NCBI RefSeq assembly: GCF_900101475.1
Contig: NZ_FMZV01000024.1
Span: 1-59,570 of the forward strand
Reading direction: 5' to 3'
Origin: Ruegeria marina
Lineage (GTDB): Bacteria; Pseudomonadota; Alphaproteobacteria; Rhodobacterales; Rhodobacteraceae
DNA length: 59,570 bases
In this document: positions 16,381 through 59,169 of the stretch, piece by piece
Layout: every line of letters starts with the position of its first letter
Numbering within the stretch: the stretch's first letter is position 1
Notes under the pieces: generated by a model
Seen by the model: the letters and a program-made list of their open reading frames with translations, nothing else
What the model was told of the DNA's origin: nothing
The model's database searches: none
Made by a program: the position numbers and the translations under genes

Positions 16381-17064
16381 TCAGGCCTGGCGCTGGACCG
16401 CGGGTTCGGGGAAGGGGCGAAAACCGCCCTGACCCGCCCGCAGCCTGGCCATGCCTTCGGCATTGACCTCGTCGAGCCGGTTGTAGAGCGCATAATCCTC
16501 GGCATAGAAGGTGCGCATTTCCTCCAGCAGATCCTGGGGAATCCAGCCGGTGTCGGTGCGCTGGCTGACATTCTTGCGGGGCAGGGGATCGTCGATCTTG
16601 AGCAGAGTGCAGATCTCGGCGAACATCTCGCTGACCTTGTGATAGGGGATGATCACATCCGCCAGCAGGTCGCCGTCGGGGGTGGTGAACATGTTGCGCT
16701 GCAGGTGCTTCTGGCCGTTGCCGAAGCGGATGTTCCAATCCGCGCGGGCCCAGAAATCGGCAAAGCTCATGTCGGCAGGCAGCGGGCTTTCGACCTTGTT
16801 TCCCGACCGGTAACGGTACCAGGAACCGATCCACTCGATCGGGTCGCGCATCACCCCGAACTTGAAGTAGCTTTCGGGCCGGTGATGCGGGTTGCGGAAC
16901 ACCACCGGATAGGTGCGGATCCCCTCGTAAAGCGAGGTATGCTTGCGGCGCGGGTCGCCGGCGCGGACGATGTCGGAATAGCGCATGAGCGCGGCTTCGA
17001 TCGAGGTCGAGGCCGTCTTGGTATTGGCGACGAAGATGAATTTCTTTCCAAAACCAATCTGCAT
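16381..17064 (-). CDS. PAPS-dependent sulfotransferase (carbohydrate type)
   Basis: Transfers sulfate from PAPS to a sugar hydroxyl. The 227 residues match the chondroitin/dermatan-type family: the 5'-phosphosulfate loop FVANTKTASTSIEAAL is at about 9-24 and the 3'-phosphate motif GVMRDPIEWIGSWYRYR is near residue 80. AGAGG eight bases before ATG 17064 favours this start; an in-frame ATG at 17082 exists. It stands alone on the minus strand between the RTX gene and the divergent double GT2. It is one of three sulfotransferases on the plasmid. No PAPS synthesis gene is present, so PAPS must come from the host. The acceptor is unknown. Confidence 0.87.
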   Translation of the reverse strand: MQIGFGKKFIFVANTKTASTSIEAALMRYSDIVRAGDPRRKHTSLYEGIRTYPVVFRNPHHRPESYFKFGVMRDPIEWIGSWYRYRSGNKVESPLPADMSFADFWARADWNIRFGNGQKHLQRNMFTTPDGDLLADVIIPYHKVSEMFAEICTLLKIDDPLPRKNVSQRTDTGWIPQDLLEEMRTFYAEDYALYNRLDEVNAEGMARLRAGQGGFRPFPEPAVQRQA

Positions 17065-17544
17065 GTAATCTGCCTCTGCCAATCCGACATATGGGGTCTT
17101 TGTCCGGTAGCCTTCTAATCATTTCTGCCGGCAGGGAACAATCACTTTCGGACCTGCGGGGCCGGGTGCACCTGTCAAGTTTCCGAACCCGGAAGGCGAG
17201 GCGCCTGGATTGTTGTGGCGCGCCGGTTCGGCCGAGTGCGCCTTTCCCGACCAGGCCCCGCAGATCGCGGGGCACGGGGTTTTCCGCATTGAGTACAAAC
17301 CCGCCGACCCCGGTGCAAATGGTGCCGGAGGGCTTGGGCGAAGCGGGGTCCGACGTTGACAAGACTGGACTCCTGCGCAAGCCGCAGTGCAGAAGGAACA
17401 GGATGCGCGAGTTGCTGCCCATGCTCTGGCTTGACGGGTTGGAAACCGGCCGGCAGGGGAGAGGCGCTTGAAACTACACGGGAACTGTTCAAACGATGGG
17501 ATGCCACTCTCCAGAACGGACCGTTGCAGGAGCGGCCGGTCCCG
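17065..17544. other. divergent promoter region between sulfotransferase and double GT2
   Basis: About 480 bases in which I see no supported gene. It contains an inverted repeat with arms CCCCGC/GCGGGG at 17256-17272. Promoters for both flanking genes must lie here, but no clear -35/-10 pair stands out. Confidence 0.4.
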
Positions 17545-19467
17545 ATGAGCAGACCTGACATGTCCCCGCCCACGCTATCGGTCATCGTGCCGGTCCATGA
17601 TGTGCAGGATCATATCGGTTCCTGCCTGGAGAGCCTGAAGGCCCAGACCCTGACCGATTTCGAGGCGATCGTGGTTGATGACGGTTCGACCGATGACAGC
17701 CCCGCGCGCCTGCGCGCCGCCATCGGCGGAGATCCCCGGTTCCGGGTCGTGCGCCAGGAAAACCGGGGCCTGTCGGGCGCGCGCAACACGGGGCTCGACC
17801 TGGCCCGGGGCGCGGTGATCGGCTTTCTCGACGGCGATGACCGGTTCGCGCCCGAGTTCCTGTCGCGGATGATGGCGGCGCTGGAGGAGAGCGGCGCCGA
17901 CTGGGTCGCCTGCGGCCTGCGCAACATCCACTCCGATGGCCACTGCGACAGCCATTCCGCCCTGCATGATGCGCCCGCCCTGGCCGCCGGGGACACCCCC
18001 CGGCTCTGGCCGCTCGAGGACTGGGAGCAGGTGATCGCGCATTTCCCCTCGGCCTGGAACAAGCTCTACCGGCGCGACCTGATCGCGGGGCTGCGGTTCG
18101 ACGAGGGCACCTGGTTCGAGGACCACGCCTTTTACCTGCGGGCGGCGGCGCGCACGCGGGCGCTGCTGCATCTGCCCGAACCGCTCTACTGGCAGACGCG
18201 CGGGCGGGCGGGGCAGATCACCGGCAGCGACAGCGAGCGCATCTTCGAACAGTTTCCGGTGCTCGACCGGGCCGCCGGGATCATGGCCGGGCCGGAGAAG
18301 CCCGGCGGCGATGCGGCGCTGGCGCGGTTGGCGCACCGGCTGATCTGGGAACGGTCGACCCAGGTGCGCGACCCGGAGCGCCGCGCCCGGTTCCTCGCCA
18401 CCGCCCGGGACTGGCTGGCGGCGCGTGGCCTGCCATCCGCACCCGACATGGCCCTGCCGCGGGACTGGGCGCTGGAACTGGCGGGCGGCGTGGCCCTGAG
18501 CCTGGTCCTGCCCTGGGATGGTCAGGCGGAGCCGCTGGCCGACACCCTGACAAGCGACCTGCCGCCGGGCAGCGAATTGCTGATCGTGGCCGATGACGCC
18601 GCCACCGCCCAGGCCGGGGTCGGGATGGCCCGCGCCGCGGGGGTTGACGGCGTGCGCGGGTTGGTCGCAGCGGAACCGGGCCGGGGGCCGGGGCCGGCCC
18701 GCAACGCCGGGCTGGCGGCGGCGGCGGGGGCGCTGGTGGTCTTTGTCGATGCCGGTGACCGGCTGATGCCGGGGGTGCTGGCGCAATGGTGCGAGGCCAT
18801 GCTGCGCGCCGAGGCCGACATGGGCCTGTCGCAATTCCGCATCGGCCTGCGCGAGGGGCATGTCCATTCCGGGGTGCATGACGCGGAGCTGTTTGCGGAA
18901 CTGCCGGCCGCGACCGGCCCGCTGGAAATGACTCCGGCCCGGGCGCTGGCGCTGCATTGCCACCCCAGCGCCAAGATCTTCCGCCGCGCCTTCCTGCTGG
19001 AACGGGACCTGCAATTCGGCGCCGGCGCCCTGGAGTGCTGGCCGCTGGTGCATGGCGCGGCGCTGGCCGCGGGGCGGGTGCTCTATTTCCCCTGGCCGGG
19101 ATGCGAAAGTGCCGAGGACGATGCCGGGCGCAGCCTGTGGCGCAGCCCGGTGCCCGCCACCGCCCTGGGCGAGACGCTGGATGCCTGCGCCGCGCTCTGG
19201 CCCCGGCTGGGCGATGCGCCGCTGCCGCCGGGCTGGCAGCGGCGGCTCTGGGCGCGGGCGCTGTGGGAGGCGCTGACCTTCGGCCACCGGGACCGGGTGG
19301 CGCGGATGCGGTTTCTGCTCTCGGCCGCGCACCAGATCCGCCGCCGCGGCCTGCACCGGATGCAGGGGCCGCTCGATCCCTATGTCTCGCCCCGGATCGA
19401 GGGGCTGATGCGGCTGTGGCGCAGCCCGGGTCAGCCGGTTGCATCCCGGGGCCGGGCCGGGCAATAA
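17545..19467 (+). CDS. glycosyltransferase with two GT2 domains
   Basis: A cytoplasmic glycosyltransferase of 640 residues. The first domain begins TLSVIVPVHDVQDHIGSCL and carries VVDDGSTDDS (nucleotide binding), RGLSGARNTGLD and FLDGDDRF (DxD) within residues 8-100, a standard active GT2. The second, about 315-420, repeats the fold in degenerate form: LSLVLPWDGQ, GPGPARNAGLAAA and VFVDAGDRLMPG, where the acidic DxD is DAGD. It may be bifunctional or have one catalytic and one structural half. ATG 17545 has AGGAG 12 bases upstream; the frame is open further but without GT2 homology, and ATG 17560 is an alternative. It is followed after 42 bp by the 1400-residue glycosyltransferase and very likely shares its transcript. 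Confidence 0.88.
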   Translation: MSRPDMSPPTLSVIVPVHDVQDHIGSCLESLKAQTLTDFEAIVVDDGSTDDSPARLRAAIGGDPRFRVVRQENRGLSGARNTGLDLARGAVIGFLDGDDRFAPEFLSRMMAALEESGADWVACGLRNIHSDGHCDSHSALHDAPALAAGDTPRLWPLEDWEQVIAHFPSAWNKLYRRDLIAGLRFDEGTWFEDHAFYLRAAARTRALLHLPEPLYWQTRGRAGQITGSDSERIFEQFPVLDRAAGIMAGPEKPGGDAALARLAHRLIWERSTQVRDPERRARFLATARDWLAARGLPSAPDMALPRDWALELAGGVALSLVLPWDGQAEPLADTLTSDLPPGSELLIVADDAATAQAGVGMARAAGVDGVRGLVAAEPGRGPGPARNAGLAAAAGALVVFVDAGDRLMPGVLAQWCEAMLRAEADMGLSQFRIGLREGHVHSGVHDAELFAELPAATGPLEMTPARALALHCHPSAKIFRRAFLLERDLQFGAGALECWPLVHGAALAAGRVLYFPWPGCESAEDDAGRSLWRSPVPATALGETLDACAALWPRLGDAPLPPGWQRRLWARALWEALTFGHRDRVARMRFLLSAAHQIRRRGLHRMQGPLDPYVSPRIEGLMRLWRSPGQPVASRGRAGQ

Positions 19468-19509
19468 CCACGGATACGCGCCGGCCATCGCTGAGGACCC
19501 CGTTTCATA

Positions 19510-22500
19510 ATGCTGACCTTTTCCGCCCTGACGCCCGCGCGCTTCGCCTATCGCGCCGATTTCTCGCACGACCCTTTCGCCAATATCTCCTTTTTCGACG
19601 CCGCGCGCGAAGAGATCCTGTTTCATCTCTCGCTGCGCGCCGAGGAGGGGCTTGCGGTCTGCAACCGGCGCGGCGCCGCGCTGGCGGACTGGCACCGCGA
19701 GATTCCGCGGCGGGTGCGGCTGGGTCGGCAGGCGCTGGTCGAGATCGCCTTTGCCGTGCCACGGCTGGCGGTGCGGCTCGACGGGCAGGAGATCTTCACC
19801 TTTGGCGGGCCGCTGCGGCGGGGCCGGTTCCCCGATCTGGCCGGGATTGCGCAGGTGGATTTCCAGGGCGGGCTGATTCCGGCAAGCCTTGACATGGATG
19901 TCAGCCATCCAGGGGTCGACCGGGGCCGGCTGCACCTGAACGGGCGGTTGGAACTGCGTGCGCCCCGGCCCGCCGGGGCCACGGGGTTCCGGCTGGAAAT
20001 CCCCGAAACAGGGTCTGATTTTCCGATCTTCCCCGACCTGCCCGGCACCGGTCTGCGCGCCGCGCTGCCGGGGCGGATCTGGGCCGGCCTGGACGCCGGG
20101 GTGCCCTTGCGGGTCCGGCTGCTGGCCGACGGGCGGGCCGTGGACGAGATCGTGCTGACACCCGAGGACCTGCTGGCCCGGGTTGTGCCGCTGCTGTCGC
20201 GGCCGGGGCTGGCGGGGGATCCGGGGCTGGCGGCGCTGGTGGCTGAACATCTCCGCTTCGCCGGGCTGGAGGCGCGGTTCGACCCGCTGGCCCGATCGGG
20301 GTTGGCGCGTCTGGGCGGCGCGCTGGGATTCGCGCGTTTCCTGCAGTCCGGCGGGGGGGCGGCAACCGCGCCGGCCCCGGCCCCGGTTCCGGACAATGCC
20401 GGGGCCGAGGTGGCCCTGATCGCGGCCAAGGCCGAGGCAGAAGCCGAGGCGGCCCTGACCGCGGCCAAGGCCGAGGCGGAAGCCGAGGCGGCCCTGACCA
20501 CCGCGCTGGCGGCCGCGGCCCCGGCCCTGCGTGCGCTTGAACCCGGCGGCGATCCGGCACGGGCGCTGGCCGCGCTGGCGCCGCCTCCGGGCAAGGGACG
20601 GCTCTATTTCTACATCGCGTTGACCGAACCCTTCTGTCTCAAGGGCTGTTTCGACGCCCTGCGCGACCACGCGCTGGCCACGGGAGCGACCGGCGAGGCC
20701 GGCGGGGGGCTGGAGGGGCTGGAGCCCTCGCCCGACGACGCCTGGTTCAATTCCGGGCTGCTGCCCTGGCTGTTGCGGGCGGACCGGGCCGAAACCCTGC
20801 GTGACGTGATGTGGCGGCTGGAGAACGCGCGCAAGGGCTGGATCATGACGCCACCGCTGGCCTGGGCCGTGGCGCAGACGCTGGCGGCGCGCACGCTCAA
20901 CGAGAAGACCCGCGAGGAGATCCTGTACAGCTTCCTGCATTTCCTGCGCAAACGCGGCGCCCGCTATTGGGAGCGCACCTCCTGCGTGGCGCTGATCGGC
21001 ACCGCGCTCGACCTGCTGGAGGCCCGGGACAGCCTGTCGGATTACATGCGCAAGGATCTGGAACGGATCCTGCTGCAGGTCTACGGCCTGTCGCGCCCGT
21101 TCTGGGATATGGTCGCGGCCCGGGATATCGCCCTGCCCCCCGCCCTGGCGGCAGCGCGGGACGGGTTTGCCGCGCTGGACGACGGGGCGGCGACCCCGGC
21201 GGTACGGGAGGCGGCCCTGCGCCTGTTCGACCAGGCCGACTGCGCCGAGGCGCCGCGGATCCGCCGCGACCTGTTCGGCCCCTCCGGGGTGGCCGGAGAG
21301 GCGGGAGGGGCGCCGGATGCGGCGGCCCTGGCCCGGACCGGGCTCGATATCGGCGAGGCCGCGCTCAGGCACCTGGCCGCGCCGGGCGGCGCCCTGCCCC
21401 CGGTGCTGGCCGACGCCGCCCGCCTGGCCCTGCCCGGCTGCTATACCCGGGTGCCCCGCGCACCCTATGCCGGCGTGCAGGAGCGCGCCGCCCGCACCGC
21501 CGCCGTCCTGCTGGCGCAGGCCCGGACGGGAACGGATCCGGTCGACGGGCTGGCCCCGCTGCTGCCCGACCTGATGGTGCTGAGCGGCCGCCGGTCGCAG
21601 CAGCTTGGCCTTGGCCTGGGGGTGGCCCTGCTGGCCGGGCTGCGCCAGACCGGGGCCACCGGAGCTGCCGACTGGCTGGAATGGGCCCTGGCCGACATGC
21701 TGCGCGAGCTGACCACGAACGCCAGGGTCACCAGCGCCGCCCCTCGGCTGGAGCTCGATCCGGTCACCGGCCAGCCCCGGCGTCTGCGTCCCGGGGAAGA
21801 GGCGCCGGAACTCGATCTCGAACCGGTCCCCTCGCTGACCGATCTGGCGCGCGCCCCGGCCGTGGCGCAGCCGCTGCGGCGGCTGCATCCGGCCCCGGAC
21901 AGCCCGCTGGCGGGGCTGGCGGCGGCGGCCCGGTCCGCCGCGCTGCCCGCACCGCATCCTGCCCTGCCCGAGGACAATCCCCTGTTCGACACGCTGGTGA
22001 CGGTGTTCTCGTGCAAGCCCAATCTCGCCACCCGCATACCGGCGCTGCGCGCGGCATGGCTGGCGCGGCTGGCGGAACTGGGCGTGCCCTACGTGATCGT
22101 CACCGGCGACGGCGACGGCACGCTGTCGGGCGATGTGCTGGCGCTGGATGCGCCGGACGATTACGAGGGCCTGCCGCAAAAGACGCTGGCCACCATCGCC
22201 TGGGTCCGGGCCAACACCGGCTTTGCCCATATGTTCAAGATCGACGACGACTGTTTCCTGAACGCCGATGCCTTCTTTCACGGGCTGAGCTACCGGAAGG
22301 CCGATTATTACGGCCGCACCCTGACCCGGGGCGTCGGCCAGATGGACCGCGCCTGGCATACGTTGAAATCCGGCTCGGACCGGGGCCGGTTCGAACTGGA
22401 CAAGTCGCCCGAACCTTCGGCCTATTGCGATGGCGGTTCGGGCTATGCGCTCAGCCGCACCGCGATGGAGGCCGCGCTCGCCGCCGCGGCCAGCCCCGAG

Positions 22501-23712
22501 GGACAGGCGCTGATCGGCGCCTCGTTCATGGAAGACAAGCTGCTGGGCGATCTTCTGTCGCTGGCGGGGATCCGCCCGGAAAACACCGATTACCGCATCG
22601 CCGTCCGCCGCCGCGAGGCGCCGGGCGGGCGCACGGTGGCGCGCTGGGAAAACGGTTTCTACCCCAGCCGGGCCAATCCGGTCGCGCTGATCCACCTGGA
22701 CGACGCCGCCGACCAGGCCACCGCCGCCGCGGCGCTGGCCTCCGATGCGCTGATCCCGAACAAGATCTGGCCCAGCTACCAGCCCGCGCGGCTGGGGGCG
22801 GACAGCAACGCGCTGGAGATGATCACGGGGCCCGAACGGCTGGTGGCGGCCCGCGAGGCGCCGGTGGCGGTGGTCGCCTGCATGCGCAACGAGATGTTCA
22901 TGCTGCCCTCCTTCCTGGCGCATTACCGCCGGCTGGGGGTCGAAAGCTTTCTGATCGCCGACAACTGTTCCGACGACGGCACCCTGGAATACCTGGCCGA
23001 GCAGCCCGATGTGGCGCTGTTCTCGGTCGATACCGCCTACAGCAAGTCGCGCTATGGCGTGGCCTGGCAGCAGGCGCTGATGGCCAACCTGCGCCCGAAC
23101 CGCTGGTCGCTGGTGGCCGATGCCGACGAGTTGCTGGTCTGGGAGCGCGAGCCGCGCCAGACCCTGCCCGGTCTGCTGGGGCAGGACGCTTTTGCCGCGG
23201 CCGATGCCGTGCGGGTCTTCATGCTCGACCTCTATCCCGAAGGCTCGCTCTCCGAGGCGACATTCGCCAGCGGCGATCCGTTCTCCGAAACCGGTCATAC
23301 CGACAGAATGCCCTTTTTAGAGACATCATACGGGCGCGGCCCCTATTCCGACAGCCCGACCTGGACCAGCGCCGTGCGGCACCGGCTGATCCCCGGATCG
23401 CGGGCGGAACTGTTCGTCGCGCAGAAGATGGCGCTGCTGAAATACAGCCCCTTCATGCGGCTGTCGGCGGGGCTGCACTATGTCTCCGGCACCCGGCCCG
23501 CCGCGCGCGAGCTGATCTTCGGCCATTTCAAGTACAATGCCGATTTCCGCCGCAAGGCCCAGGCCGAGGTGGCGCGCGGCCAGCATTTCAACGATGCCGA
23601 GGAATACCGGAAATACCTCGCCCTCGTTTCCGAGGGGCGCGATGTGATCTTCGATGCCGATGTCTCGGTCCCCTGGCAGGATTGTGCCTTCGTCAAGGCG
23701 CGGCTGGGCTGA
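19510..23712 (+). CDS. 1400-residue fusion: galectin-like domain, GT31-like and GT2-type glycosyltransferase domains
   Basis: A very large glycan-assembly protein. Residues about 5-125 resemble a galectin carbohydrate-recognition domain: the FHLSLR, AVCNRR and WHRE stretches keep H39, R43, N52, W61 and E64 in galectin order, followed by VEIAF...LAVRLDGQEIFTF. Residues about 300-340 are an Ala/Glu-rich helix with a tandem repeat, followed by a long helical region. A GT31-like galactosyltransferase domain lies at about 820-1000 with QKTLATIAWV, HMFKIDDDCFLN (DxD) and AYCDGGSGYALSR. The last part, from about 1120, is a GT2-like (Glyco_tranf_2_4 type) domain: VVACMRNEMFMLPSFLAHYR, then DNCSDDGTLEYL and VADADELLVWE. 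Its last 20 bases overlap convergently with the GT4 gene. Domain calls are from motifs; linkages are unknown. Confidence 0.85.
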   Translation: MLTFSALTPARFAYRADFSHDPFANISFFDAAREEILFHLSLRAEEGLAVCNRRGAALADWHREIPRRVRLGRQALVEIAFAVPRLAVRLDGQEIFTFGGPLRRGRFPDLAGIAQVDFQGGLIPASLDMDVSHPGVDRGRLHLNGRLELRAPRPAGATGFRLEIPETGSDFPIFPDLPGTGLRAALPGRIWAGLDAGVPLRVRLLADGRAVDEIVLTPEDLLARVVPLLSRPGLAGDPGLAALVAEHLRFAGLEARFDPLARSGLARLGGALGFARFLQSGGGAATAPAPAPVPDNAGAEVALIAAKAEAEAEAALTAAKAEAEAEAALTTALAAAAPALRALEPGGDPARALAALAPPPGKGRLYFYIALTEPFCLKGCFDALRDHALATGATGEAGGGLEGLEPSPDDAWFNSGLLPWLLRADRAETLRDVMWRLENARKGWIMTPPLAWAVAQTLAARTLNEKTREEILYSFLHFLRKRGARYWERTSCVALIGTALDLLEARDSLSDYMRKDLERILLQVYGLSRPFWDMVAARDIALPPALAAARDGFAALDDGAATPAVREAALRLFDQADCAEAPRIRRDLFGPSGVAGEAGGAPDAAALARTGLDIGEAALRHLAAPGGALPPVLADAARLALPGCYTRVPRAPYAGVQERAARTAAVLLAQARTGTDPVDGLAPLLPDLMVLSGRRSQQLGLGLGVALLAGLRQTGATGAADWLEWALADMLRELTTNARVTSAAPRLELDPVTGQPRRLRPGEEAPELDLEPVPSLTDLARAPAVAQPLRRLHPAPDSPLAGLAAAARSAALPAPHPALPEDNPLFDTLVTVFSCKPNLATRIPALRAAWLARLAELGVPYVIVTGDGDGTLSGDVLALDAPDDYEGLPQKTLATIAWVRANTGFAHMFKIDDDCFLNADAFFHGLSYRKADYYGRTLTRGVGQMDRAWHTLKSGSDRGRFELDKSPEPSAYCDGGSGYALSRTAMEAALAAAASPEGQALIGASFMEDKLLGDLLSLAGIRPENTDYRIAVRRREAPGGRTVARWENGFYPSRANPVALIHLDDAADQATAAAALASDALIPNKIWPSYQPARLGADSNALEMITGPERLVAAREAPVAVVACMRNEMFMLPSFLAHYRRLGVESFLIADNCSDDGTLEYLAEQPDVALFSVDTAYSKSRYGVAWQQALMANLRPNRWSLVADADELLVWEREPRQTLPGLLGQDAFAAADAVRVFMLDLYPEGSLSEATFASGDPFSETGHTDRMPFLETSYGRGPYSDSPTWTSAVRHRLIPGSRAELFVAQKMALLKYSPFMRLSAGLHYVSGTRPAARELIFGHFKYNADFRRKAQAEVARGQHFNDAEEYRKYLALVSEGRDVIFDADVSVPWQDCAFVKARLG
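20413..20490 (+). repeat. 39-bp tandem repeat inside the large glycosyltransferase gene
   Basis: Two copies (20413-20451 and 20452-20490) differ at two positions, and nine bases of a third copy follow. Each encodes ALTAAKAEAEAEA, an alanine/glutamate helix probably acting as a linker that could change length by slippage. Confidence 0.85.
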
Positions 23713-25993: not shown

Positions 25994-26647
25994 TCATTGC
26001 ATCACCTCGAGGTGCAGTGCAATCGCCTCTTCGAGGTCGTCGAAATAATAGAGCTTGCCCTCGACCAGAACCGCGCCCGCCTCGCAAAACTGCCGCAACT
26101 CGGCCATGGCATGGCTCACCATCAGCGCGCCCGCGCTTTTCATCCGCTCGCGGAACACCGCCTGGCTCTTGCGCTTGAAGGCGGCATCGCCCACCGCGGT
26201 CACCTCGTCCACAAGGTAGGTGTCGAAGGGGATGCCCATCGAAGCGCCGAAGGTCAGCCGCGAGCGCATGCCCGCCGAATAGCTGCGCACCGGCATGTGG
26301 AAATGTTTTCCCAGTTCGGCGAAATCCTCGACAAAGGCCAGGAGCCCCTCGGTATCGACCCCATAGATCCGGGCCAGGAAGCGCACGTTCTGCGCCCCTG
26401 TCAGCTCGCCGTGGAACGAGCCGCCGAACCCCACCGGCCAGGAGATCGACCCGTTGCTGGAGACCCGGCCGCTGTCGGCGCGCATGGTGCCCGCGACGAT
26501 CTGCAACAGCGTCGACTTGCCCGCCCCGTTGCGCCCCAAGAGCGCCACCGATTTGCCGGAGGGCAGGGTCATGTCGATCGCATCCAGCACGATCTTGCGC
26601 TCGCCCCGCACGCGGAAGCTCTTGGTGAGATGCTCGAAACGGATCAT
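25994..26647 (-). CDS. kpsT: capsular polysaccharide ABC transporter, ATP-binding subunit
   Basis: ATPase that powers export of a finished polysaccharide across the inner membrane with KpsM. The 217 residues have Walker A LLGRNGAGKSTLLQ at about 36-49, the signature SYSAGMRSRL (variant of LSGGM), and Walker B TYLVDEVTAVGD. The short length without a C-terminal sugar-binding domain matches KpsT/BexA/CtrD capsule exporters, not Wzt O-antigen exporters. It lies 18 bp behind kpsE and is followed by a sulfotransferase. The partner kpsM is not adjacent in this operon; it is divergent from kpsE. Confidence 0.95.
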   Translation of the reverse strand: MIRFEHLTKSFRVRGERKIVLDAIDMTLPSGKSVALLGRNGAGKSTLLQIVAGTMRADSGRVSSNGSISWPVGFGGSFHGELTGAQNVRFLARIYGVDTEGLLAFVEDFAELGKHFHMPVRSYSAGMRSRLTFGASMGIPFDTYLVDEVTAVGDAAFKRKSQAVFRERMKSAGALMVSHAMAELRQFCEAGAVLVEGKLYYFDDLEEAIALHLEVMQ

Positions 26648-39620: not shown

Positions 39621-39636
39621 TGTCTCTGGACCCCGC

Positions 39637-46308: not shown

Positions 46309-46355
46309 GCCGCGCCTCCCGCTTCTTTCTGGTCCGAAATACTCCCGCCGGAGGC

Positions 46356-51156: not shown

Positions 51157-51170
51157 AACATCCGAATGCC

Positions 51171-51187
51171 GTCAGGAAAAACCTGAC
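51171..51187 (+). terminator. hairpin behind the fucosyltransferase-like gene
   Basis: Perfect arms GTCAGG and CCTGAC with an AAAAA loop, 14 bases after the stop and in the convergent gap with ugd. There is no T-run, so it is a weak or Rho-assisted terminator at best. Confidence 0.4.
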
Positions 51188-51287
51188 CCGCCGCCGCGGC
51201 CGGAAATCGGGGATTTCGACGCGCCAGGCGGTGCCGGATGGCCCCCTTGTATCGTCCGAAACGCTCGGGAGCCTTTTGCGCAGCGCC

Positions 51288-52463
51288 TCAGTCGGAGCCG
51301 AAGAGATCGCGGGTGAAGATCTTGTCCGAGACATCCGCCAGATCCTCGGTGCGGCGGTTCGCGATGATCACATCGGCGCTGCGCTTGAACTCTTCCAGGT
51401 CGCGCACGACCCGGGACCCGAAGAATTGCTCTTCTTCGAAGCGGGGTTCAAAGACGATCACCTCGATACCCTTGGCCTTGATCCGCTTCATGATGCCCTG
51501 CGTGGCGCTTTGGCGGAAATTGTCCGACCCGGCCTTCATCACCAGGCGGTAAACCCCCACGCAGCGCGGTTGCAGCGCCAGGATGCTGTCGCTGATGAAA
51601 TCCTTGCGGGTCCGGTTGGCATCGACGATGGCGCGGATCAGGTTCTGGGGCACCTCGGAATAGTTGGCCAGAAGCTGTTTGGAATCCTTGGGCAGGCAAT
51701 AGCCGCCATAGCCGAAGGACGGGTTGTTGTAATGGGTGCCGATCCGCGGATCCAGAGCGACGCCCTCGATTATCTGGCGGGTATCGAGCCCATGGCTCAG
51801 CGCATAGCTGTCAAGCTCGTTGAAATAGGCCACGCGCATGGCGAGGTAGGTATTGGCAAAAAGCTTGATCGCCTCGGCCTCGGACGAGTCTGTGAACAGC
51901 ACCGGCACATCCGGCTTGAGCGAGGCATCGCGCAACAGGTCGGCAAAGAGGCGGGCGCGTTCGGATTTCGCGCCGACGATGATCCGCGAGGGGTAGAGGT
52001 TGTCGTGAAGCGCCTTGCCTTCGCGCAGGAACTCGGGGCTGAACACGATCCGGTCGGTCCCCAGTTCCGCGCGGAGACTGGCGGTATACCCCACCGGGAT
52101 GGTCGACTTGATGATGATGGTGGCGGTGTCGTTCAGCGCCAGCACGGTCTTGACCACCGCCTCGACCGAGGAGGTGTCAAAGAAATTGGTGTTCGGGTCG
52201 TAATTGGTCGGTGTGGCCACGATCACGAAATCCGCCCCGCCGAACGCGGTGGCCGCATCGGTGGTGGCGGTCAGGTTCAACGGCTTTTCGATCAGGTAGC
52301 TTTCGATATCCGCATCGACGATGGGACATTTGCGATCATTGAGCATGTCGACCCGGGCCTGGTCGATGTCCAGGGCAACAACCGGGTTCTTCTGGGCCAG
52401 AAGCACGGCGTTGGACAGGCCGACATAACCGATACCGGCAACGGCGATTTTGATTTCAGACAT
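51288..52463 (-). CDS. ugd: UDP-glucose 6-dehydrogenase
   Basis: Oxidises UDP-glucose to UDP-glucuronate with two NAD. 391 residues, the length of the E. coli-type enzyme. NAD loop [20 protein letters not shown], then [43 protein letters not shown] and [14 protein letters not shown] with the catalytic Cys. It ends the gmd-fcl-hydrolases-manC-ugd run, 73 bp behind manC. UDP-GlcA can go to the 4-epimerase at 11802-12803 to give UDP-GalA. Confidence 0.95.
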
Positions 52464-52536
52464 GGCAAACGGGCTTTCGCGATCATCGGGAAAAGACAGT
52501 CACCCCGGCTATGGGGATGGTCGTGGGACAGGGGGC

Positions 52537-53958
52537 TCAGCTGCGGGCGTAGATGTCTTCGTAGCGGATGATGTCATCCTCGCCCAGGTAACTGCCGGTC
52601 TGCACCTCGATGAGCACCATCGGCACCTTGCCGGGGTTTTCCATCCGGTGCACCGCGCCCAGCGGGATATAGACCGACTGGTTTTCGGTGAGCAGCCTGA
52701 CCTCGTCATCCACCGTCACCTTCGCGGTGCCCTCGACCACGATCCAGTGTTCCGAACGGTGGTGGTGGCTCTGCAGGCTGAGCGAGGCGCCGGGATGCAC
52801 GACGATGCGCTTGACCTGGAAGCGCCCGCCGATGATCAGGCTTTCGTACCAGCCCCAGGGGCGGTAATCGCGCGGCAGCTGCACCGCCTGGCTGACGCCC
52901 TTGGCCTTGAGCGCGGCCACGGCTTCCTTGACGCGCTGCGCCTGGGACTTCGGCGCCACCAGCACGGCGTCGGACATGGATACGACCATCATGTCCTCGA
53001 GGCCGATGCCCACCAGCTGCTGACCCGGCGTTTCCGAGCGCAGCAGCGTATCGCGGCAGTCGATCGCGGTGGCCTCGTCGGAACAGACATTGCCCGCCGC
53101 GTCGGGGCCGCTTACCGCCCAGACCGCGTCCCAGCCGCCCAGATCGGACCAGCCGGCGCCAAAGGGCATGACGGCCAGGTTGTCGGCCTTTTCCATGATC
53201 GCATAGTCGATCGAGATGTCTTCGGCTCCGGACCAGGGCGCGGCGGCAAGCCGGGTAAAGCCGAGATCCGTACCGGCGCCTTCCAGCGCCGCGGACACGG
53301 CCTCGACCAGGGCGGGCGCATGGGCGCGGTAGGCGGCCAGGATGGCTTCAGCCGTGAACAGGAAGATGCCGGCGTTCCAGAGATAGGTGCCGGCGGCGAG
53401 CATTTCGGCAGCGCGGGCCGCATCGGGTTTTTCGACGAACCGGGCCAGGCTTTGCGGGGCGTTGGCCTGGGCATCGGCCCCGGCGGCCAGTTCCAGATAG
53501 CCATAGCCGGTTTCGGCCCGCGTCGGGGTGATGCCGAAGGTCACCAGATCACCCGCCTGCGCGCGCGGCGCGGCTGCGACAACCGCGGCGCGGAAGGCCT
53601 CCGGGTCGGGGATGACGTGATCTGACGGCGCGACCAGCATCAGCGCCTGCGCATCGCGCTCGGCCAGCCACAGCGCGGCAGCCAGGACAGCGGGGGCCGT
53701 ATTGCGCCCTTCGGGTTCGATCAGGATGCCTTGGGGCGCCTGTTCGACCTGCGCCAGCTGTTCGGTGACGATGAAGCGGAACGGCTCGCCGGTCAGCACC
53801 ACGGGGGCCGCGAAGCCCTCGCCCGAGAGCCGTTTGGCCGAGGCCTGGAACAGACTTTCCTCGCCCATCAGCCTGGCGAACTGCTTGGGGTAGGATTTGC
53901 GCGACAGCGGCCAAAGCCGGGTGCCGGAACCGCCGCAGAGAAGGATGGGGGTGATCAT
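52537..53958 (-). CDS. manC: mannose-1-phosphate guanylyltransferase/mannose-6-phosphate isomerase
   Basis: Bifunctional enzyme making GDP-mannose. 473 residues. The N-terminal nucleotidyltransferase has PILLCGGSGTRLWPLSRKSY, PKQFARLMGEESLFQASAKR, LVAPSDHVI and FVEKPDAARAAEML. The C-terminal cupin isomerase (about 370-470) has RPWGWYESLIIG, VHPGASLSLQSHHHRSEHW and AVHRMENPGKVPMV. GDP-mannose then feeds gmd and fcl. A deleted copy of its C-terminus lies at 32831-32966. No phosphomannomutase gene is present, so mannose-1-phosphate comes from the host. Confidence 0.97.
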   Translation of the reverse strand: MITPILLCGGSGTRLWPLSRKSYPKQFARLMGEESLFQASAKRLSGEGFAAPVVLTGEPFRFIVTEQLAQVEQAPQGILIEPEGRNTAPAVLAAALWLAERDAQALMLVAPSDHVIPDPEAFRAAVVAAAPRAQAGDLVTFGITPTRAETGYGYLELAAGADAQANAPQSLARFVEKPDAARAAEMLAAGTYLWNAGIFLFTAEAILAAYRAHAPALVEAVSAALEGAGTDLGFTRLAAAPWSGAEDISIDYAIMEKADNLAVMPFGAGWSDLGGWDAVWAVSGPDAAGNVCSDEATAIDCRDTLLRSETPGQQLVGIGLEDMMVVSMSDAVLVAPKSQAQRVKEAVAALKAKGVSQAVQLPRDYRPWGWYESLIIGGRFQVKRIVVHPGASLSLQSHHHRSEHWIVVEGTAKVTVDDEVRLLTENQSVYIPLGAVHRMENPGKVPMVLIEVQTGSYLGEDDIIRYEDIYARS

Positions 53959-53996
53959 TTCCGGAGAACTTTCTTGATTGGAGCCGTCATTGGAAT

Positions 53997-54953
53997 TTAT
54001 GTCTTTGTCGTGAGAAGATGGGCAAGGTATCCACGGCGTTCAGATGTGTCCACATCTCCCTTGAGGAGTGCCGTTTGTGGTATGTCGGGCAGCTGCTCTA
54101 GCAAAATGGACGTGGCAGTGAATGGTTCAAATTTGTTCAGACCAAATCGTTCATAGTAACAAAACTGATCATAGCAATTGGCGATCCGCTCCCCACCGTC
54201 ATATGTCAAACGGATCATTCCGGAACGGGGGCCCATCAGAAAAGTTGCGCCGGATATGATCTCCGGGGTTTCGAGTTTTAGTTCCAGTGGTTTGCCGGGG
54301 GTGAGTTCAACACAGTTGACTTCGTATCCAGAACGCCGAAACAGTCGGGACGCAGCTCCAGCACACAGGAGGTCATGGGCCAACAGGGCACCATACTGAT
54401 GATGGTTTGCAGTTTCAAAGTTCGGCGAAGGCACGCGCAAATCGCGGGAGAGCAGCTCTTGCAAGGCAAGGCTGTAAACTTTTATCCCCTCTTCTGACGG
54501 ATGTACAAAATCACGCAGAAGCCCTGTTACTTTCTTGATTTGTACGATTGGGAAATCGTGCTCATGGCATATTTTTTCATGCATATCGTACAGCCAATCA
54601 TTGCTGTAATCTACATCGTTCCGTGGCAAATCCAAAAAAGCGACCTTGGCTTTCAGCCGCGCACAGCACCCCAGGAGCGCATTGAGGGATTTCAGATGAT
54701 CGCCGGCTCCGAATTTCAATTGACGAAAACCCGCCGTTGACAGCTCCAGAATGACAATATCAGGCCGATATGTCTCCATTATTGAGTCGAAGAGATGCCT
54801 GAGATCGTGCGGGTGAATGCCGCCGATTGCAGCCTTTTGTATATCAAAGATATTTTCAAGATTATGCTGGGCCGCCCCGACAAAGCCGGGTGTTTCAGCG
54901 GTAACGCTAAAGCCAACCACCAAAACTTTCTTCAAAGGCACTGGAGTGTTCAT
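53997..54953 (-). CDS. SGNH/GDSL-like hydrolase, low-GC gene
   Basis: 318 residues. The opening KKVLVVGFSVTAETPGFV has the Gly-x-Ser nucleophile position. Next, RPDIVILELSTAGFRQ resembles block II-III, and RDFVHPSEEGIKVYSLALQE gives the DxxH-type catalytic pair. A C-terminal beta domain of about 110 residues follows. No signal peptide is seen, so it acts in the cytoplasm or is exported otherwise. It overlaps the alpha/beta hydrolase gene by 4 bp. The DNA here is visibly AT-richer than its neighbours, a sign of transfer. An esterase acting on acyl groups of the polysaccharide is plausible. Confidence 0.72.
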   Translation of the reverse strand: MNTPVPLKKVLVVGFSVTAETPGFVGAAQHNLENIFDIQKAAIGGIHPHDLRHLFDSIMETYRPDIVILELSTAGFRQLKFGAGDHLKSLNALLGCCARLKAKVAFLDLPRNDVDYSNDWLYDMHEKICHEHDFPIVQIKKVTGLLRDFVHPSEEGIKVYSLALQELLSRDLRVPSPNFETANHHQYGALLAHDLLCAGAASRLFRRSGYEVNCVELTPGKPLELKLETPEIISGATFLMGPRSGMIRLTYDGGERIANCYDQFCYYERFGLNKFEPFTATSILLEQLPDIPQTALLKGDVDTSERRGYLAHLLTTKT

Positions 54954-55834
54954 TGCGCAATTCTAGAATTTTTGAGCAAGGTCAGCTTTTCGAGAATTTC
55001 CGGCACCAGTTCGGGCGGCTCGCCGACCGCGTGCCCACGATCATCCTCAAAGAAGATAAGGGTGCTATTTTTCAAATATGGAGATTCCCATTTCCCGTTT
55101 TTCTTCTCGAAAATCTTCGAAAAGTGTTCATCCATATGATGAGGATCGCATGTGTTTTGAACATAAACGATACGGGATTCGCTCATGATATTGCTTCTTG
55201 CGATAACGGAGTTGCGGTACGAATGCTTGACGGCAAATTCCTTTTTCGTCATTCCGTCGAAGAAAACATCCAGATATCGCTTGAGGGCATTGCCTTCAAA
55301 GCTGGTCAGAAGAATTTGGGGATTGATCGTTACCGCCTGCGCTTCTGGTATCTCTACCAAGGCGCGCAAGGTGGCGAACCCTCCGCCAGAACTGCCGTAA
55401 AAAACGATATCCTCGACTGAGGTTTCAAGATTTTGCGCGACACGTCTTACGATATTGGCGATGTCATGGTTGATGTCTCGGGCCCTGGTTCCAATGTACC
55501 AGCCAAGCCCAAGGTCTTCTGTTTTCTTCAACAGGGGATCAGAGATATATAATGTATGTCCCGGAAAATTATTGTGCCAACTCCAGCGCTGAAACGCTGG
55601 CAACGGTGTTTGCGCCCGATGTACGAAACCTGAGAAGAAGACAAAGAGCGGCGTTCCGGCCGGGACTTGATCTTTCTTGAAAAATGCCAAGTCAAAATCG
55701 ATACCATCAACATCCACCGTATAAAGCCCGGATGAGCGTATGGCTGTGGCTGACGAAACCGTTTGCCGCTGTAGATTCTTTATGCTCTCTCCAGATACCT
55801 TGCCGCTGGAGTTATTGAATTTTTCTTTCTTCAC
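54950..55834 (-). CDS. alpha/beta-hydrolase-fold protein, low-GC gene
   Basis: 294 residues, GTG start at 55834 with GGAG nine bases upstream. A strand TPLFVFFSGFVH precedes the nucleophile elbow FYGSSGGGFATLRAL (GxSxG). NTCDPHHMDEHFSK may hold the acid residue, and DDRGHAVGEPPE the catalytic His. The INPQILLTSF segment after the elbow recalls capsule-cluster hydrolases of the XcbB/Asp2-like kind. No signal peptide. Coupled to the SGNH-like gene by an ATGA overlap; the pair has the lowest GC of the plasmid and looks acquired as a unit. Substrate unknown; deacetylation or transacylation of sugars is a guess. Confidence 0.7.
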   Translation of the reverse strand: MKKEKFNNSSGKVSGESIKNLQRQTVSSATAIRSSGLYTVDVDGIDFDLAFFKKDQVPAGTPLFVFFSGFVHRAQTPLPAFQRWSWHNNFPGHTLYISDPLLKKTEDLGLGWYIGTRARDINHDIANIVRRVAQNLETSVEDIVFYGSSGGGFATLRALVEIPEAQAVTINPQILLTSFEGNALKRYLDVFFDGMTKKEFAVKHSYRNSVIARSNIMSESRIVYVQNTCDPHHMDEHFSKIFEKKNGKWESPYLKNSTLIFFEDDRGHAVGEPPELVPEILEKLTLLKNSRIAQ

Positions 55835-55956
55835 AATCGTTTACTCCGACCTTATTCCAGAGCTTCGTTATAAGGTTGGGCGCAGTCAGAGATCACAACC
55901 CATACGAAGCGGAATTAATTCGTTCGACATCTCTCCCGCGGGTGCCTGGATATTGG

Positions 55957-56925
55957 TTACATCCGCAAATCTTCAGACTTCTTGAACCACTCATAGGTTT
56001 CCTCGATCCCTTCGCGCAGGCCCACGCGGGCCTTCCAGCCCATGTCGGCCAGACGCGAGACATCCATCAGCTTCTTCATCGTGCCGTCGGGTTTGGACGG
56101 GTCGTTGCTGATCTTGCCCTGAAATCCCGTCACCTTCGCCACCATATGCGCCAGGTCCAGGATCGAGATATCGGTGCCGGTGCCCACGTTGATATGGCTC
56201 AGCATCGGTTCGGTGTTGGCCTCGTAGGTCGCCTTGTCCAGTTCCAGCACGAAGAGGCTCGCCTCGGCCATGTCGTCGACATGCAGGAACTCGCGCATCG
56301 GCTTGCCCGAGCCCCAGATCACCACCTCTTCCAGCCCGTCGCGCGCGGCCTCGTGGAAGCGGCGGATCAGCGCGGGCAGGACGTGGGAATTCTCGGGGTG
56401 GAAATTGTCTCCGGGGCCATAAAGGTTGGTCGGCATGACCGAGCGGTAATCGGTGCCATGCTGCCGGTTGTAGCTTTCACAGAGCTTGATGCCGGCGATC
56501 TTGGCCACCGCATAGGGTTCGTTGGTGGGCTCCAGCACGCCGGTCAGCAGCGCGTCTTCCTTCATCGGCTGCGCCACGGCGCGGGGATAGATGCAGGAGG
56601 ACCCCAGTTGCAGCAGACGCTGCACGCCGGCGGCAAAGGCCTGATGGATCACGTTGCATTCGATCATCAGGTTTTCATAGATGAAATCCGCCGGATAGGT
56701 GTTGTTGGCGTGGATGCCGCCCACCTTGGCCGCCGCCAGGATCACCACATCCGGCTTTTCGGCCTGCATGAAGTCGCGCACGGCGGCCTGGTTGGTCAGG
56801 TCCAGCTCGGCATGGGTGCGGGTGAGCAGCTCCAGCGCTTCACCGGCTTCCTTGCGGGCCTGCAGGCGGCGCAGGATCGCGCCTCCCACCATGCCGCGAT
56901 GACCTGCGATATAGATTTTCTGCAT
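55957..56925 (-). CDS. fcl: GDP-L-fucose synthase
   Basis: Epimerase/reductase that turns GDP-4-keto-6-deoxymannose into GDP-L-fucose. 322 residues with [14 protein letters not shown] at the NADP site, [42 protein letters not shown] (YxxxK) and [20 protein letters not shown], all Fcl signatures. It starts 16 bp behind gmd. The hydrolase pair sits between it and manC, breaking the usual manC-gmd-fcl set. Confidence 0.97.
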
Positions 56926-56941
56926 GGGAGGCGCCTTTCAC

Positions 56942-58066
56942 TCAGCCGTTTTCGAGCGAGACCGGCAAGTCATAGCCATGCAATTTGAGCAGGGCGTGAC
57001 GCTGGGCCACTTTCAGATCCTCGGCGACCATTTCGGCACACATTTCCTGGGTGGTGATTTCGGGCACCCAGCCCAGCTTGGCCTTGGCCTTGGCCGGATC
57101 TCCCAGCAGGGTTTCCACCTCGGCAGGACGGAAATACCGCGGATCGACGCGTACGATCACATCGCCCACCTTCAGCGCCGGGGCCTTGTCGCCCTCGATG
57201 GCGGCAACGGTGGCTATCTCGTCCACGCCTTCGCCCGAAAATTCCAGCGTCATGCCCAGCTCGGCCGCCGACCAGGTGATGAACTCGCGCACCGAATACT
57301 GCACGCCGGTGGCGATGACGAAATCCTCGGCCACGTCCTGCTGCAGCATCATCCACTGCATGCGCACATAGTCCTTGGCATGCCCCCAGTCACGCAGCGC
57401 ATCCATGTTGCCCATGTAAAGGCAGGTCTCGAGCCCCTGGGCGATATTGGCCAGCCCGCGGGTGATCTTGCGGGTCACGAAGGTTTCGCCGCGGCGCGGG
57501 CTTTCGTGATTGAACAGGATGCCGTTGCAGGCATACATGCCATAGGCTTCGCGATAGTTGACCGTGATCCAGTAGGAATAAAGCTTGGCCACCGCGTAAG
57601 GCGACCGCGGATAGAAGGGCGTGGTTTCCTTTTGCGGGATTTCCTGGACCAGGCCGTAAAGTTCGGAGGTCGATGCCTGGTAGAAACGGGTCTTGTCCTC
57701 GAGACCGAGAAACCGGATTGCCTCGAGCAGGCGCAGCGTGCCGATCCCATCGACATCCGCAGTGTATTCCGGGGCTTCGAAGCTGACGGCCACATGGGAC
57801 TGGGCCCCCAGGTTGTAGACCTCGTCCGGCTCCACTTCGCGCATGATGCGGGTCAGGTTGGAGGTGTCGGTCAGATCGCCGTAATGCAGTTTGAACCTGG
57901 CGTTGTCGACATGCGGATCCTGATAGATATGATCCACCCGGGCGGTGTTGAACAGCGAGGCGCGGCGCTTGATGCCGTGTACTTCGTATCCCTTGGCAAG
58001 CAGAAACTCGGCGAGATACGAACCATCTTGTCCCGTCACGCCGGTAATCAGAGCTTTTTTCGTCAT
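56942..58066 (-). CDS. gmd: GDP-mannose 4,6-dehydratase
   Basis: First committed step to GDP-L-fucose. From ATG 58066 the protein is 374 residues, the family length: [58 protein letters not shown] and [18 protein letters not shown]. All are diagnostic for Gmd. The frame continues upstream to 58120 without resemblance. It heads the gmd-fcl-hydrolases-manC-ugd run; its promoter should lie in the 149 bp before the sulfotransferase stop at 58216. Confidence 0.97.
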
Positions 58067-58215
58067 TTCAATTATTCCATCAAACACAGTGGAGGGCCGA
58101 CGGTGCGCTCTGAGGTCCATCCGTGGTCTTCAGATAACAGCTGGCGGGAACCCGTACATGTTACGGGGTGCCTAGCAAATGGCTGGAGAGCCCGCAAGGC
58201 AGTACAATGTCCGGG

Positions 58216-59169
58216 TCATGTCATGGGCAGGACGGAGCCCGCGGGGTCGGGATCATATCCCAGCCGATCGCACAGTTCGCGGTAACAGTCCGGCATGGCG
58301 GCCTCGAACTGGCTGCGCAGGGCCTCGGTCAGGGGGCGGCGCGGTCGCTGCACGATACTTGCGGACTTCCGGCCGCTGTCTCCGGTCAGGTGGATGGCGG
58401 GCAGGAAATCCTGCCAGCGCGGCTCGAATTCCAGCGCCAGGCACTCTGTCATCCGCCGACATTCCAGGTCGGGATGCTGTGCGAAGCGTTCATAGTGGAA
58501 GATTTCCAGCCCGCGATAAGCGTCGAGAAAGCGGAGATAGCACCGCGCATAGCCTTCGAGCGTGTCTGTCAAACCGCGTGCCCAGCCATTGTGCCGGAGG
58601 GAGGCATAGGAATCCAGGGGATGGCGCACCGTAAGCAGGGCGCGGGTCTCGAACCGGCCCGAGACGATGTCTCGCATCAGCGGACGGTCGCCGGGATCCG
58701 CAAACTCGCAGAAATGGGAATGCGTATGATCGCGTATCACCAGGTGACGCCCTTCGCCTTGCGTGGCGCGGTGCAGAACGTCCAGCTGTTGCAGGAACAT
58801 CTCGGTGATCGTGTCCTGCCCGGGCGGAGTCCGGTTCTGGCGGGCCAGGTGGATCAGGTCGCTGGGGGCAAAGCCGGGAGAGATGCGCCTGTTCGTGCTG
58901 AAGGGATCGACTTCGCTCAGAAGCATCGTGTTGGGCTGGCTGGCCAGCGCCCGGGACATCAATGTTCCCCCGGTACAGGCGAAATGGTGGATCAGGCGAA
59001 GCGGCTGACGGGCCGTGGCCTGAATCCGGGTGACCTGGCGCTGGCATTGCGCCAGCAGGCCCTCCAGCGCTTCGTCCGAGGCCCCGTCCAGGCTGTCTGC
59101 CGGCATGATCGGGTCGAGCAGGGCCAGGGTGTCTTCCAGAAAGCCTTGGAGATCGGGGCGGTCGGTCAT
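58216..59169 (-). CDS. sulfotransferase-like protein
   Basis: 317 residues. After an N-terminal helical segment, LIHHFACTGGTLMSRALASQ (about 59-78) occupies the place of the 5'-phosphosulfate loop, in a variant form. Later, RALLTVRHPLDSYASLRHNG is the 3'-phosphate motif (R-x9-S). This suits a PAPS sulfotransferase of divergent type. ATG 59169 overlaps the stop of the FkbM/coiled-coil gene as ATGA. It is the third sulfotransferase on the plasmid and ends the GT2-GT47-GT10, methyltransferase, sulfotransferase operon that crosses the window edges. Acceptor unknown. Confidence 0.8.
   Translation of the reverse strand: MTDRPDLQGFLEDTLALLDPIMPADSLDGASDEALEGLLAQCQRQVTRIQATARQPLRLIHHFACTGGTLMSRALASQPNTMLLSEVDPFSTNRRISPGFAPSDLIHLARQNRTPPGQDTITEMFLQQLDVLHRATQGEGRHLVIRDHTHSHFCEFADPGDRPLMRDIVSGRFETRALLTVRHPLDSYASLRHNGWARGLTDTLEGYARCYLRFLDAYRGLEIFHYERFAQHPDLECRRMTECLALEFEPRWQDFLPAIHLTGDSGRKSASIVQRPRRPLTEALRSQFEAAMPDCYRELCDRLGYDPDPAGSVLPMT

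Follow-up and report, generated by a model that had tools for sequence, protein, structure and literature searches.

The described systems closest to the locus discussed here are the RepA "biofilm plasmids" of roseobacters, which help decide whether these bacteria stick to surfaces and algae, and of which Michael 2016 is reportedly the founding paper. In P. inhibens, according to the available part of the source, mutants in the rml genes of the native 65-kb plasmid show reduced attachment (PMC11481893). Two further systems bear on sulfate. The synechan (Xss) exopolysaccharide locus of Synechocystis holds two sulfotransferases, and its product, as far as the accessible part of the source tells, contains rhamnose, a little fucose, sulfate and almost no uronate (PMC13125312). 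The exopolysaccharide of Salipiger mucosus A3T, a member of the roseobacter clade according to a listing, has fucose at 13.4% of carbohydrate, sulfates at 0.9% w/w and no rhamnose among the sugars given in the portion at hand (PMC2953402). We analysed a whole contig of Ruegeria marina (NZ_FMZV01000024.1, 59,570 bases, "the window" hereafter) which bears three predicted sulfotransferase genes, A (25213), B (16381) and C (58216), lying amid genes for glycosyltransferases, polysaccharide export and sugar nucleotides. Synechan is likened to the window by description (a bacterial exopolysaccharide locus with several sulfotransferases) and not by locus homology, and Salipiger by polymer composition (fucose plus sulfate) and not by genes; as an analogue, synechan is a precedent for a sulfated polymer made by a bacterial locus that holds two sulfotransferases.

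For the window, we consider a sulfated, fucose-containing surface polysaccharide as the most economical reading of the cargo, with a probability of about 0.6. The original prediction was wider: a plasmid-borne programme placing rhamnose, fucose and uronate in one sulfated polymer. The programme itself is sustained by the gene content and by the repeated occurrence, in relatives, of sulfotransferases linked to genes for glycosyltransferases, export and fucose; the single polymer was not borne out, the rml/Wza/YjbH, ABC and fucose blocks being separable and rmlB not being enriched near sulfotransferase C. That the polymer resembles ulvan or fucoidan, or mimics algae, finds no support here beyond analogy. 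The surface-polymer part is not new, since plasmids of this class were already known to determine attachment in roseobacters. As to sulfation, a search of the open literature combining sulfotransferase with roseobacter polysaccharide or plasmid terms gave no paper treating the sulfotransferases of such plasmids, which is weak evidence of absence; one sulfotransferase is listed among genes of two algal-bleaching bacteria, with no tie to a polysaccharide in the part of the source available (PMC3230580).

The window is the entire contig C38 of a 4.99 Mb genome in 51 contigs. Very probably it is a closed, circular plasmid that is opened here at an arbitrary position, and gene rows cross its ends. 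A minus-strand open reading frame (ORF) exits at position 1 and resumes, in frame, from 59570 to 59166, which makes circularity the simplest reading; its two parts match the N-terminal and C-terminal regions of a single 486-residue protein of Leisingera sp. M527, the C-terminal match being weak (44 residues, E 0.001). No exact overlap of 15 bases or more was found between the contig ends, and altogether circularity is strongly supported. A RepA-type replicon with ParA and ParB on a separate circular molecule, a complete rml operon and polysaccharide export genes very probably make this contig, as judged from its genes, a RepA plasmid of the roseobacter biofilm type. In a plasmid collection, DNA matching 16000-40000 occurs in 99 records, 58 of them from Phaeobacter, 13 from Leisingera, 5 from Sulfitobacter and the remainder from others.

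Compared over the first 49,900 of its 68,752 bases, the Phaeobacter plasmid pGal_F69 shares with the window the RepA/ParA/ParB replicon, the rml operon, Wza, YjbF/YjbH, a KpsM/T/E-type exporter, Glf, Gmd/Fcl/ManC, a UDP-glucose/GDP-mannose dehydrogenase with an epimerase, and calcium-binding, M10-type and DUF2793 proteins. The two differ as follows: pGal_F69 has one sulfotransferase-family-2 gene (38.6 bits) where the window has three sulfotransferases; the position after KpsT is held by glf in pGal_F69, and by sulfotransferase A and its glycosyltransferase in the window; and no 58216-type sulfotransferase, GT47 or fucosyltransferase-like gene, all present in the window, was seen in the compared part of pGal_F69.

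The first evidence for sulfation of an exported chain is the position of sulfotransferase A, in the order KpsE, KpsT, sulfotransferase A, glycosyltransferase 23693, with the ATG of this glycosyltransferase overlapping the stop of sulfotransferase A (ATGA). Homologues of this glycosyltransferase (E<=1e-40) occur in 19 of 345 genomes of the family, own included, and the 18 others were all fetched. Fifteen are strong, i.e. above 450 bits, a cut set after the scores were known; three lie below it, at 181-201 bits. In this unselected sample, a same-strand sulfotransferase stands directly upstream of 9 of the 15 strong homologues. It belongs to family A, itself rare (8 of 345 family genomes at E<=1e-30, own included), at four of these loci (L120, L122, L123, L132), and at the five others (L116, L117, L121, L126, L131) to a family typified by a Tropicibacter protein. 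The two genes overlap by 4 bases at L116, L122, L126 and L131, are at most 20 bases apart at L117, L121 and L123, and have ambiguous starts at their junction at L120 and L132. No phmmer match at E 1e-5 links the two families. Both a profile search (PDB 3rnl, 2e-7) and the record annotation identify the Tropicibacter-type one as a sulfotransferase family; one member has a sub-threshold Pfam match (21.4 bits for a cut-off of 27), and the member from Tropicibacter itself has no Pfam match. As one sulfotransferase family replaces the other at the coupled position, it is sulfation itself, not one protein, that appears to be kept.

The same arrangement is found on plasmids of Sulfitobacter W027 and D7, Palleronia LCG004 and Tropicibacter oceani, where, as in the window, a sulfotransferase directly precedes a 23693-type glycosyltransferase. 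On the Sulfitobacter and Tropicibacter plasmids a giant opposite-strand glycosyltransferase adjoins, which is one gene further in Palleronia, where no KpsM/T/E is annotated within the 49.9 kb examined; the Tropicibacter sulfotransferase at this place is of a different family from that of the window, and a same-family genome, G359, has a contig with a gene row identical to that of the Tropicibacter oceani plasmid. Our control set of KpsE loci consists of the 80 that score best after our own, with E values up to 6.6e-72; lower-scoring ones (G111, G013, G016, G147, G008) and paralogues at about 25% identity fall outside it. KpsT is directly followed by a sulfotransferase in 1 of 78 loci devoid of a 23693-type glycosyltransferase, taken as control, and in 4 of 7 unselected loci having one (8 of 11 once the window, L003, L004 and L006 are added). 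The main adjacency figure, 9 of 15, keeps to loci of the family sample to avoid selection bias, because L002, L003 and L004 were found via sulfotransferase A, L006 via DNA similarity to the region and L008 via sulfotransferase C. With these five, the window, L116, L118-L124, L126 and L130-L133, it becomes 14 of 19; here the contig-edge locus L125 is left out, L117 is the same stretch as L006, and L120 was counted by hand, its glycosyltransferase ORF being over-extended across the sulfotransferase.

The exporter associated with A comprises a permease and an ATPase recognised by Pfam and a KpsE recognised by its similarity to TIGR01010, which corresponds to an ABC-transporter-dependent, group 2-like system. 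The ABC export that had been predicted thus stands by Pfam and family similarity, while the NCBIfam models for KpsM and KpsE stay under their cut-offs. No match to PF05159 (Capsule_synth, KpsC/KpsS), the mark of the group 2 Kdo (3-deoxy-D-manno-octulosonic acid) linker, was found on the plasmid, so that from sequence we do not class the system as a group 2 capsule. KpsC/KpsS-like ORFs of 450 and 668 aa do exist in the same genome, on contig C27 beside a Poly_export-domain export protein, and could therefore act from there. Contig C14 carries a kdsA-KpsE-KpsT set beside a gene of the phosphomannomutase (PMM) family; this set (L143) and the C27 ORFs (L141) form a second, separate capsule-type system.

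The second evidence concerns sulfotransferase C. The contig being very probably circular, 58216 belongs in one row with the genes at 852 to 1 and 4295 to 942. Read in this way, nine minus-strand genes, spaced by -4 to 122 bases, follow each other: GT47 glycosyltransferase, coiled-coil protein, sulfotransferase C, gmd, fcl, two hydrolase-like genes, manC and ugd. A promoter and terminator scan of 51000-59570 gave no better than shuffles. Judged by gene order, the three sulfotransferases lie in separate transcription units, as predicted. Homologues of C occur in 18 of 345 family genomes, own included, and we compared with the control two sets of loci: 25 from titled genome contigs and the 17 non-own ones of the family sample, at least two contigs (17,317 and 25,919 bases) being common to both. 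One control locus, L057, itself holds sulfotransferase C and was shifted out for the 17-locus comparison, leaving 79. Loci differ in length, and p-values ignore shared ancestry.

Around C, gmd is found at 10 of the 25 loci (2 of 80 in the control), fcl and GT47 each at 8 (1), and a gene of the 50263 type, discussed below, at 9 (1). Relatives of the end-crossing coiled-coil protein accompany C at 17 of the 25 loci and occur at 1 of the 80, which is L057. In the family sample the counts are: gmd 6 of 17 versus 2 of 79, fcl 5 versus 1, GT47 4 versus 1, the 50263 type 5 versus 1. At least one of these four genes is present at 12 of 17 loci, compared to 4 of 79 in the control, and at 19 of 25 in the wider set. 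On the Leisingera M527 plasmid, the order is sulfotransferase, gmd, fcl. The two modules, that of A and that of C, share one contig in the window, G050, G142 and G178, and lie side by side in a Rhodobacteraceae metagenome-assembled genome (L008); by genome, they co-occur in 3 of 344 besides our own for 0.89 expected (p = 0.05), which is only suggestive.

These same counts nourish the most serious competitor, to which we give somewhat less than an even chance: two or three separate glycans, the rml/Wza/YjbFH genes making an unsulfated, rhamnose-containing biofilm matrix and the ABC exporter with the fucose/sulfotransferase row a sulfated, capsule-like glycan. RmlB is indeed no commoner near C than in the control (3 of 25 versus 14 of 80; 4 of 17 versus 13 of 79), Wza/YjbH and KpsM/T/E are distinct export types, and pGal_F69 has rml and Wza/YjbH together with a different sulfotransferase. 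On the other hand such blocks occur together on small plasmids of several genera, and no flippase or Wzy-type polymerase was found by Pfam among 50 ORFs of the window, so that the ABC exporter is the sole recognised inner-membrane exporter on the plasmid.

The identity of the three sulfotransferases is of unequal clarity, although their number agrees with the original prediction: A is clear and B a narrow pass by Pfam, while C is recognised by its predicted fold only. A also matches Stf0 (30.5 bits), and the models for trehalose 2-sulfotransferase and NoeE far under their cut-offs. B has no NCBIfam match; a relative of it is found near the giant glycosyltransferase at four loci (window, L002, L120, L131). 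C has no Pfam or NCBIfam match, hence no curated family model; its Leisingera M527 relative reaches 24.8 bits with Sulfotransfer_3, slightly under the cut-off of 27. The AlphaFold model of C (predicted local distance difference test, pLDDT, 86.9) has sulfotransferases as its first 21 Foldseek PDB matches, 14 of them at E<=0.001, and a profile of 24 sequences retrieves the CurM sulfotransferase at 7e-5. The loop IHHFACTGGT and R182-x-P184-x-x-S187 are invariant across the 24 aligned relatives; we take such motifs to be the P-loop and the 3'-phosphate site of enzymes dependent on 3'-phosphoadenosine 5'-phosphosulfate (PAPS). With this fold and these sites, 58216 may be classed as a divergent sulfotransferase-like protein. 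Divergent sulfotransferase-like proteins of a KTGTT type also occur in L007 and in many KpsE loci: at 28 of the 80, phmmer finds one ORF or more with a match to any of eight sulfotransferase seeds. Of these weak proteins, the few submitted to Pfam had no match there, and several show no recognisable P-loop.

GDP-fucose and the means to transfer it complete the second module. Gmd, Fcl and ManC, which combines guanylyltransferase and mannose-6-P isomerase, pass their cut-offs, and Fcl is preferred to another reductase because GDP-fucose synthetase chains head its PDB matches (E 8e-133). The GDP-fucose set announced as complete nevertheless lacks a phosphomannomutase on the plasmid, the two PMM-family genes of the genome being on contigs C43 and C14. 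The gene at 50263, of which the prediction made no mention, encodes a protein with no Pfam or NCBIfam match, hence no curated family model, and nothing of note by PDB sequence search. Its model (pLDDT 85.7) has 75 PDB fold matches at E<=0.001; the 50 listed are all fucosyltransferases, NodZ being the best (5e-10). The predicted fold is that of GT23/65/68-like fucosyltransferases, and we class 50263, from its model, as fucosyltransferase-like; as such it would supply the transfer step for GDP-fucose. The ORFs of the coiled-coil protein upstream of 50263 and of the end-crossing one upstream of C both share 4 bases with the start of the sugar-modifying enzyme that follows, and it is possible that they are the partners of the fucosyltransferase-like protein and of sulfotransferase C. 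The two hydrolase-like genes of the fucose row (53997-55834) overlap by 4 bases and have a G+C of 0.47-0.50, compared to 0.60-0.68 in the rest of the row; perhaps they are a recent insertion.

NodH and Stf0 sulfate targets other than polysaccharides (lipids, small molecules or signals of the lipooligosaccharide type), and the plasmid enzymes might do the same. The Stf0 match of A, with its distant trehalose 2-sulfotransferase and NoeE scores, and the nearness of the 50263 model to NodZ go in this direction; however A, B and C all lie amid glycosyltransferase and export genes, two of the three are linked to them in relatives, and no nodABC-like or trehalose-synthesis family appears among the family matches of the proteins scanned, so that we hold such targets to be improbable. 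That these are sulfotransferase folds without sulfation activity, as the weak or absent family scores of 58216 and 16381 would allow, is less probable still, the residues of the P-loop and 3'-phosphate site being invariant in 24 (C), 8 (A) and 5 (B) aligned sequences.

Several observations weigh against the sulfated, fucose-containing polysaccharide. The adjacent sulfotransferase is missing at 6 of the 15 strong glycosyltransferase homologues (L118, L119, L124, L125, L130 and L133, L125 being a contig edge) and at all three weaker ones. Five of 17 and 6 of 25 sulfotransferase C loci, some of them short contigs, have none of the four fucose-side genes, and ManC, Ugd and RmlB show no enrichment near C. 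Both 58216 and 16381 are at or past the edge of known family models; the profile of B relatives retrieved from PDB no sulfotransferase, only four matches to unrelated helical proteins. The best Foldseek matches of the 58216 and 50263 models have modest TM-scores, of about 0.4 to 0.6. Sulfate transfer by A, B and C, and their acceptors, are predictions from genes and folds. Lastly, PAPS can be made since the genome has two copies of the adenosine 5'-phosphosulfate (APS) kinase gene, one fused to ATP-sulfurylase; but APS kinase is present in 12 of 14 control genomes, and this supply is therefore not specific.

With these reservations, the sulfated polysaccharide might be made as follows. The plasmid would supply dTDP-rhamnose, GDP-fucose with the help of the off-plasmid phosphomannomutase, and probably UDP-glucuronate. 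Glycosyltransferases, including GT47 and the NodZ/POFUT-like 50263, would build the chain of an acidic surface polysaccharide in the cytoplasm, and the three sulfotransferases, using PAPS from enzymes encoded elsewhere in the genome, would sulfate it before export. A and its coupled glycosyltransferase 23693 would act on the chain exported by the KpsM/T/E-type system, C would sulfate the fucose-containing part, and B would work with the neighbouring large glycosyltransferases. What the analysis establishes are the gene identities, their linkage in relatives and the predicted sulfotransferase and fucosyltransferase folds; the enzymatic activities, the acceptor sugars, the convergence of the modules on one coat and its role in attachment are what we infer.

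The remaining sugar-nucleotide genes fit the prediction in part. The dTDP-rhamnose set is complete as announced, and the UDP-galacturonate set is not borne out: the dehydrogenase is under the cut-off of its best equivalog model, and the candidate epimerase at 11802, which lies outside the region that the prediction covered, passes no equivalog cut-off among those listed, its best PDB match (5u4q, 367.7 bits) being named dTDP-glucose 4,6-dehydratase. Table 1 collects the features of the window. Apart from these, relatives of the DUF2793 protein (4876-6099) occur at 15 of the 80 KpsE loci and 5 of the 17 sulfotransferase C loci. Two large proteins (12999-16079 and 30266-32776) have RTX calcium-binding repeats, the latter also M10-type peptidase and PPC regions; it is possible that both are matrix proteins.

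Table 1. Features of the Ruegeria marina window, in order of position, with the evidence for each.
Feature	Position	Strand	Evidence
End-crossing ORF, N-terminal two thirds	1-852	-	In-frame junction; resembles protein upstream of Leisingera M527 sulfotransferase
GT47 (exostosin-domain) glycosyltransferase, first in row	942-4295	-	Pfam Exostosin_GT47 52.1 bits
UDP-galactopyranose mutase Glf	6175-7293	-	Pfam GLF 253.1 bits
RepA replication initiator	7571-8608	-	Pfam RPA 337.7 bits; 78% identity to pGal_F69 RepA
ParA	8933-10411	+	Pfam AAA_31 102.5 bits
ParB	10446-11516	+	No Pfam match; 231-364 bits to annotated ParB of three related plasmids
Nucleotide-sugar epimerase/dehydratase, candidate UDP-uronate 4-epimerase	11802-12803	-	No equivalog cut-off passed among 25 models listed
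Sulfotransferase B, divergent from large glycosyltransferases	16381-17082	-	Pfam Sulfotransfer_2 23.3 bits, cut-off 22 (narrow pass)
Two large glycosyltransferase ORFs (17356-19467 and 19510-23712)	17356-23712	+	Pfam GT2, Glyco_tranf_2_4, Galactosyl_T
Glycosyltransferase 23693	23693-25216	-	Weak NCBIfam glycosyltransferase matches
Sulfotransferase A, between KpsT and glycosyltransferase	25213-25980	-	Pfam Sulfotransfer_3 46.7 bits, cut-off 27
KpsT-type ABC ATPase	25994-26647	-	Pfam ABC_tran 51.8 bits; best NCBIfam model TagH, under cut-off
KpsE/BexC-type inner-membrane export protein, start uncertain	26666-28117	-	TIGR01010 205.1 bits, under cut-off 437.5
KpsM-type ABC permease	28209-29024	+	Pfam ABC2_membrane 58.7 bits; NCBIfam KpsM 69.5, under cut-off 300
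GT2 glycosyltransferase	28954-30114	-	Pfam
YjbF	33521-34210	-	Pfam 97.7 bits
YjbH	34189-36372	-	Pfam 681.7 bits
NDP-sugar dehydratase/epimerase, GalE, GalU, sugar-1-P transferase, another epimerase	within 36494-43324		Pfam/NCBIfam
Wza-like export protein	42197-43324	+	Pfam/NCBIfam
rmlA, rmlD, rmlB, rmlC (dTDP-rhamnose)	44591-47985	-	All four over NCBIfam equivalog cut-offs
Coiled-coil protein	49007-50266	+	Overlaps 50263 start by 4 bases
Fucosyltransferase-like protein (NodZ/POFUT/FUT8 fold)	50263-51156	+	Structure model and PDB fold search
Nucleotide-sugar dehydrogenase (ugd), probably UDP-glucose 6-dehydrogenase	51288-52463	-	TIGR03026 335.3 bits, over cut-off 189.8; PRK15057 628.8, under 757
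ManC, mannose-1-P guanylyltransferase/mannose-6-P isomerase	52537-53958	-	TIGR01479 588.4 bits, cut-off 372.95
Possible SGNH/GDSL-type hydrolase	53997-54953	-	No own match; L008 homologue Lipase_GDSL_2 30.6 bits, cut-off 32.9; G+C 0.495
Hydrolase-like protein (label from sequence reading)	54950-55834	-	XcbB/CpsF NCBIfam 25.8 bits, far under cut-off 125; G+C 0.473
Fcl, GDP-L-fucose synthase	55957-56925	-	NCBIfam NF047922 513.7 bits, cut-off 500
Gmd, GDP-mannose 4,6-dehydratase	56942-58120	-	NCBIfam TIGR01472 575.7 bits, cut-off 415
Sulfotransferase C, divergent	58216-59169	-	Invariant columns in 24 sequences; AlphaFold model with fold search; profile search
End-crossing ORF, C-terminal coiled-coil part	59166-59570	-	Overlaps sulfotransferase C start by 4 bases

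A wider and more tentative idea, which we regard as rather unlikely, is that coat sulfation in roseobacters is a plasmid-borne, exchangeable trait: on biofilm plasmids, unrelated-looking sulfotransferases would be swapped before the same glycosyltransferase, and a further operon for fucose sulfation (GT47, sulfotransferase, Gmd, Fcl, fucosyltransferase) would add to it. If so, strains could alter how their coat is sulfated by exchanging parts of plasmids, with effects on attachment, phage adsorption or contact with algae. As to the sulfated, fucose-containing coat itself, it would, if true, tie sulfur metabolism to attachment, give a genetic explanation for the sulfate measured in a roseobacter exopolysaccharide, and provide a genetically defined source of sulfated fucose polymers from bacteria.

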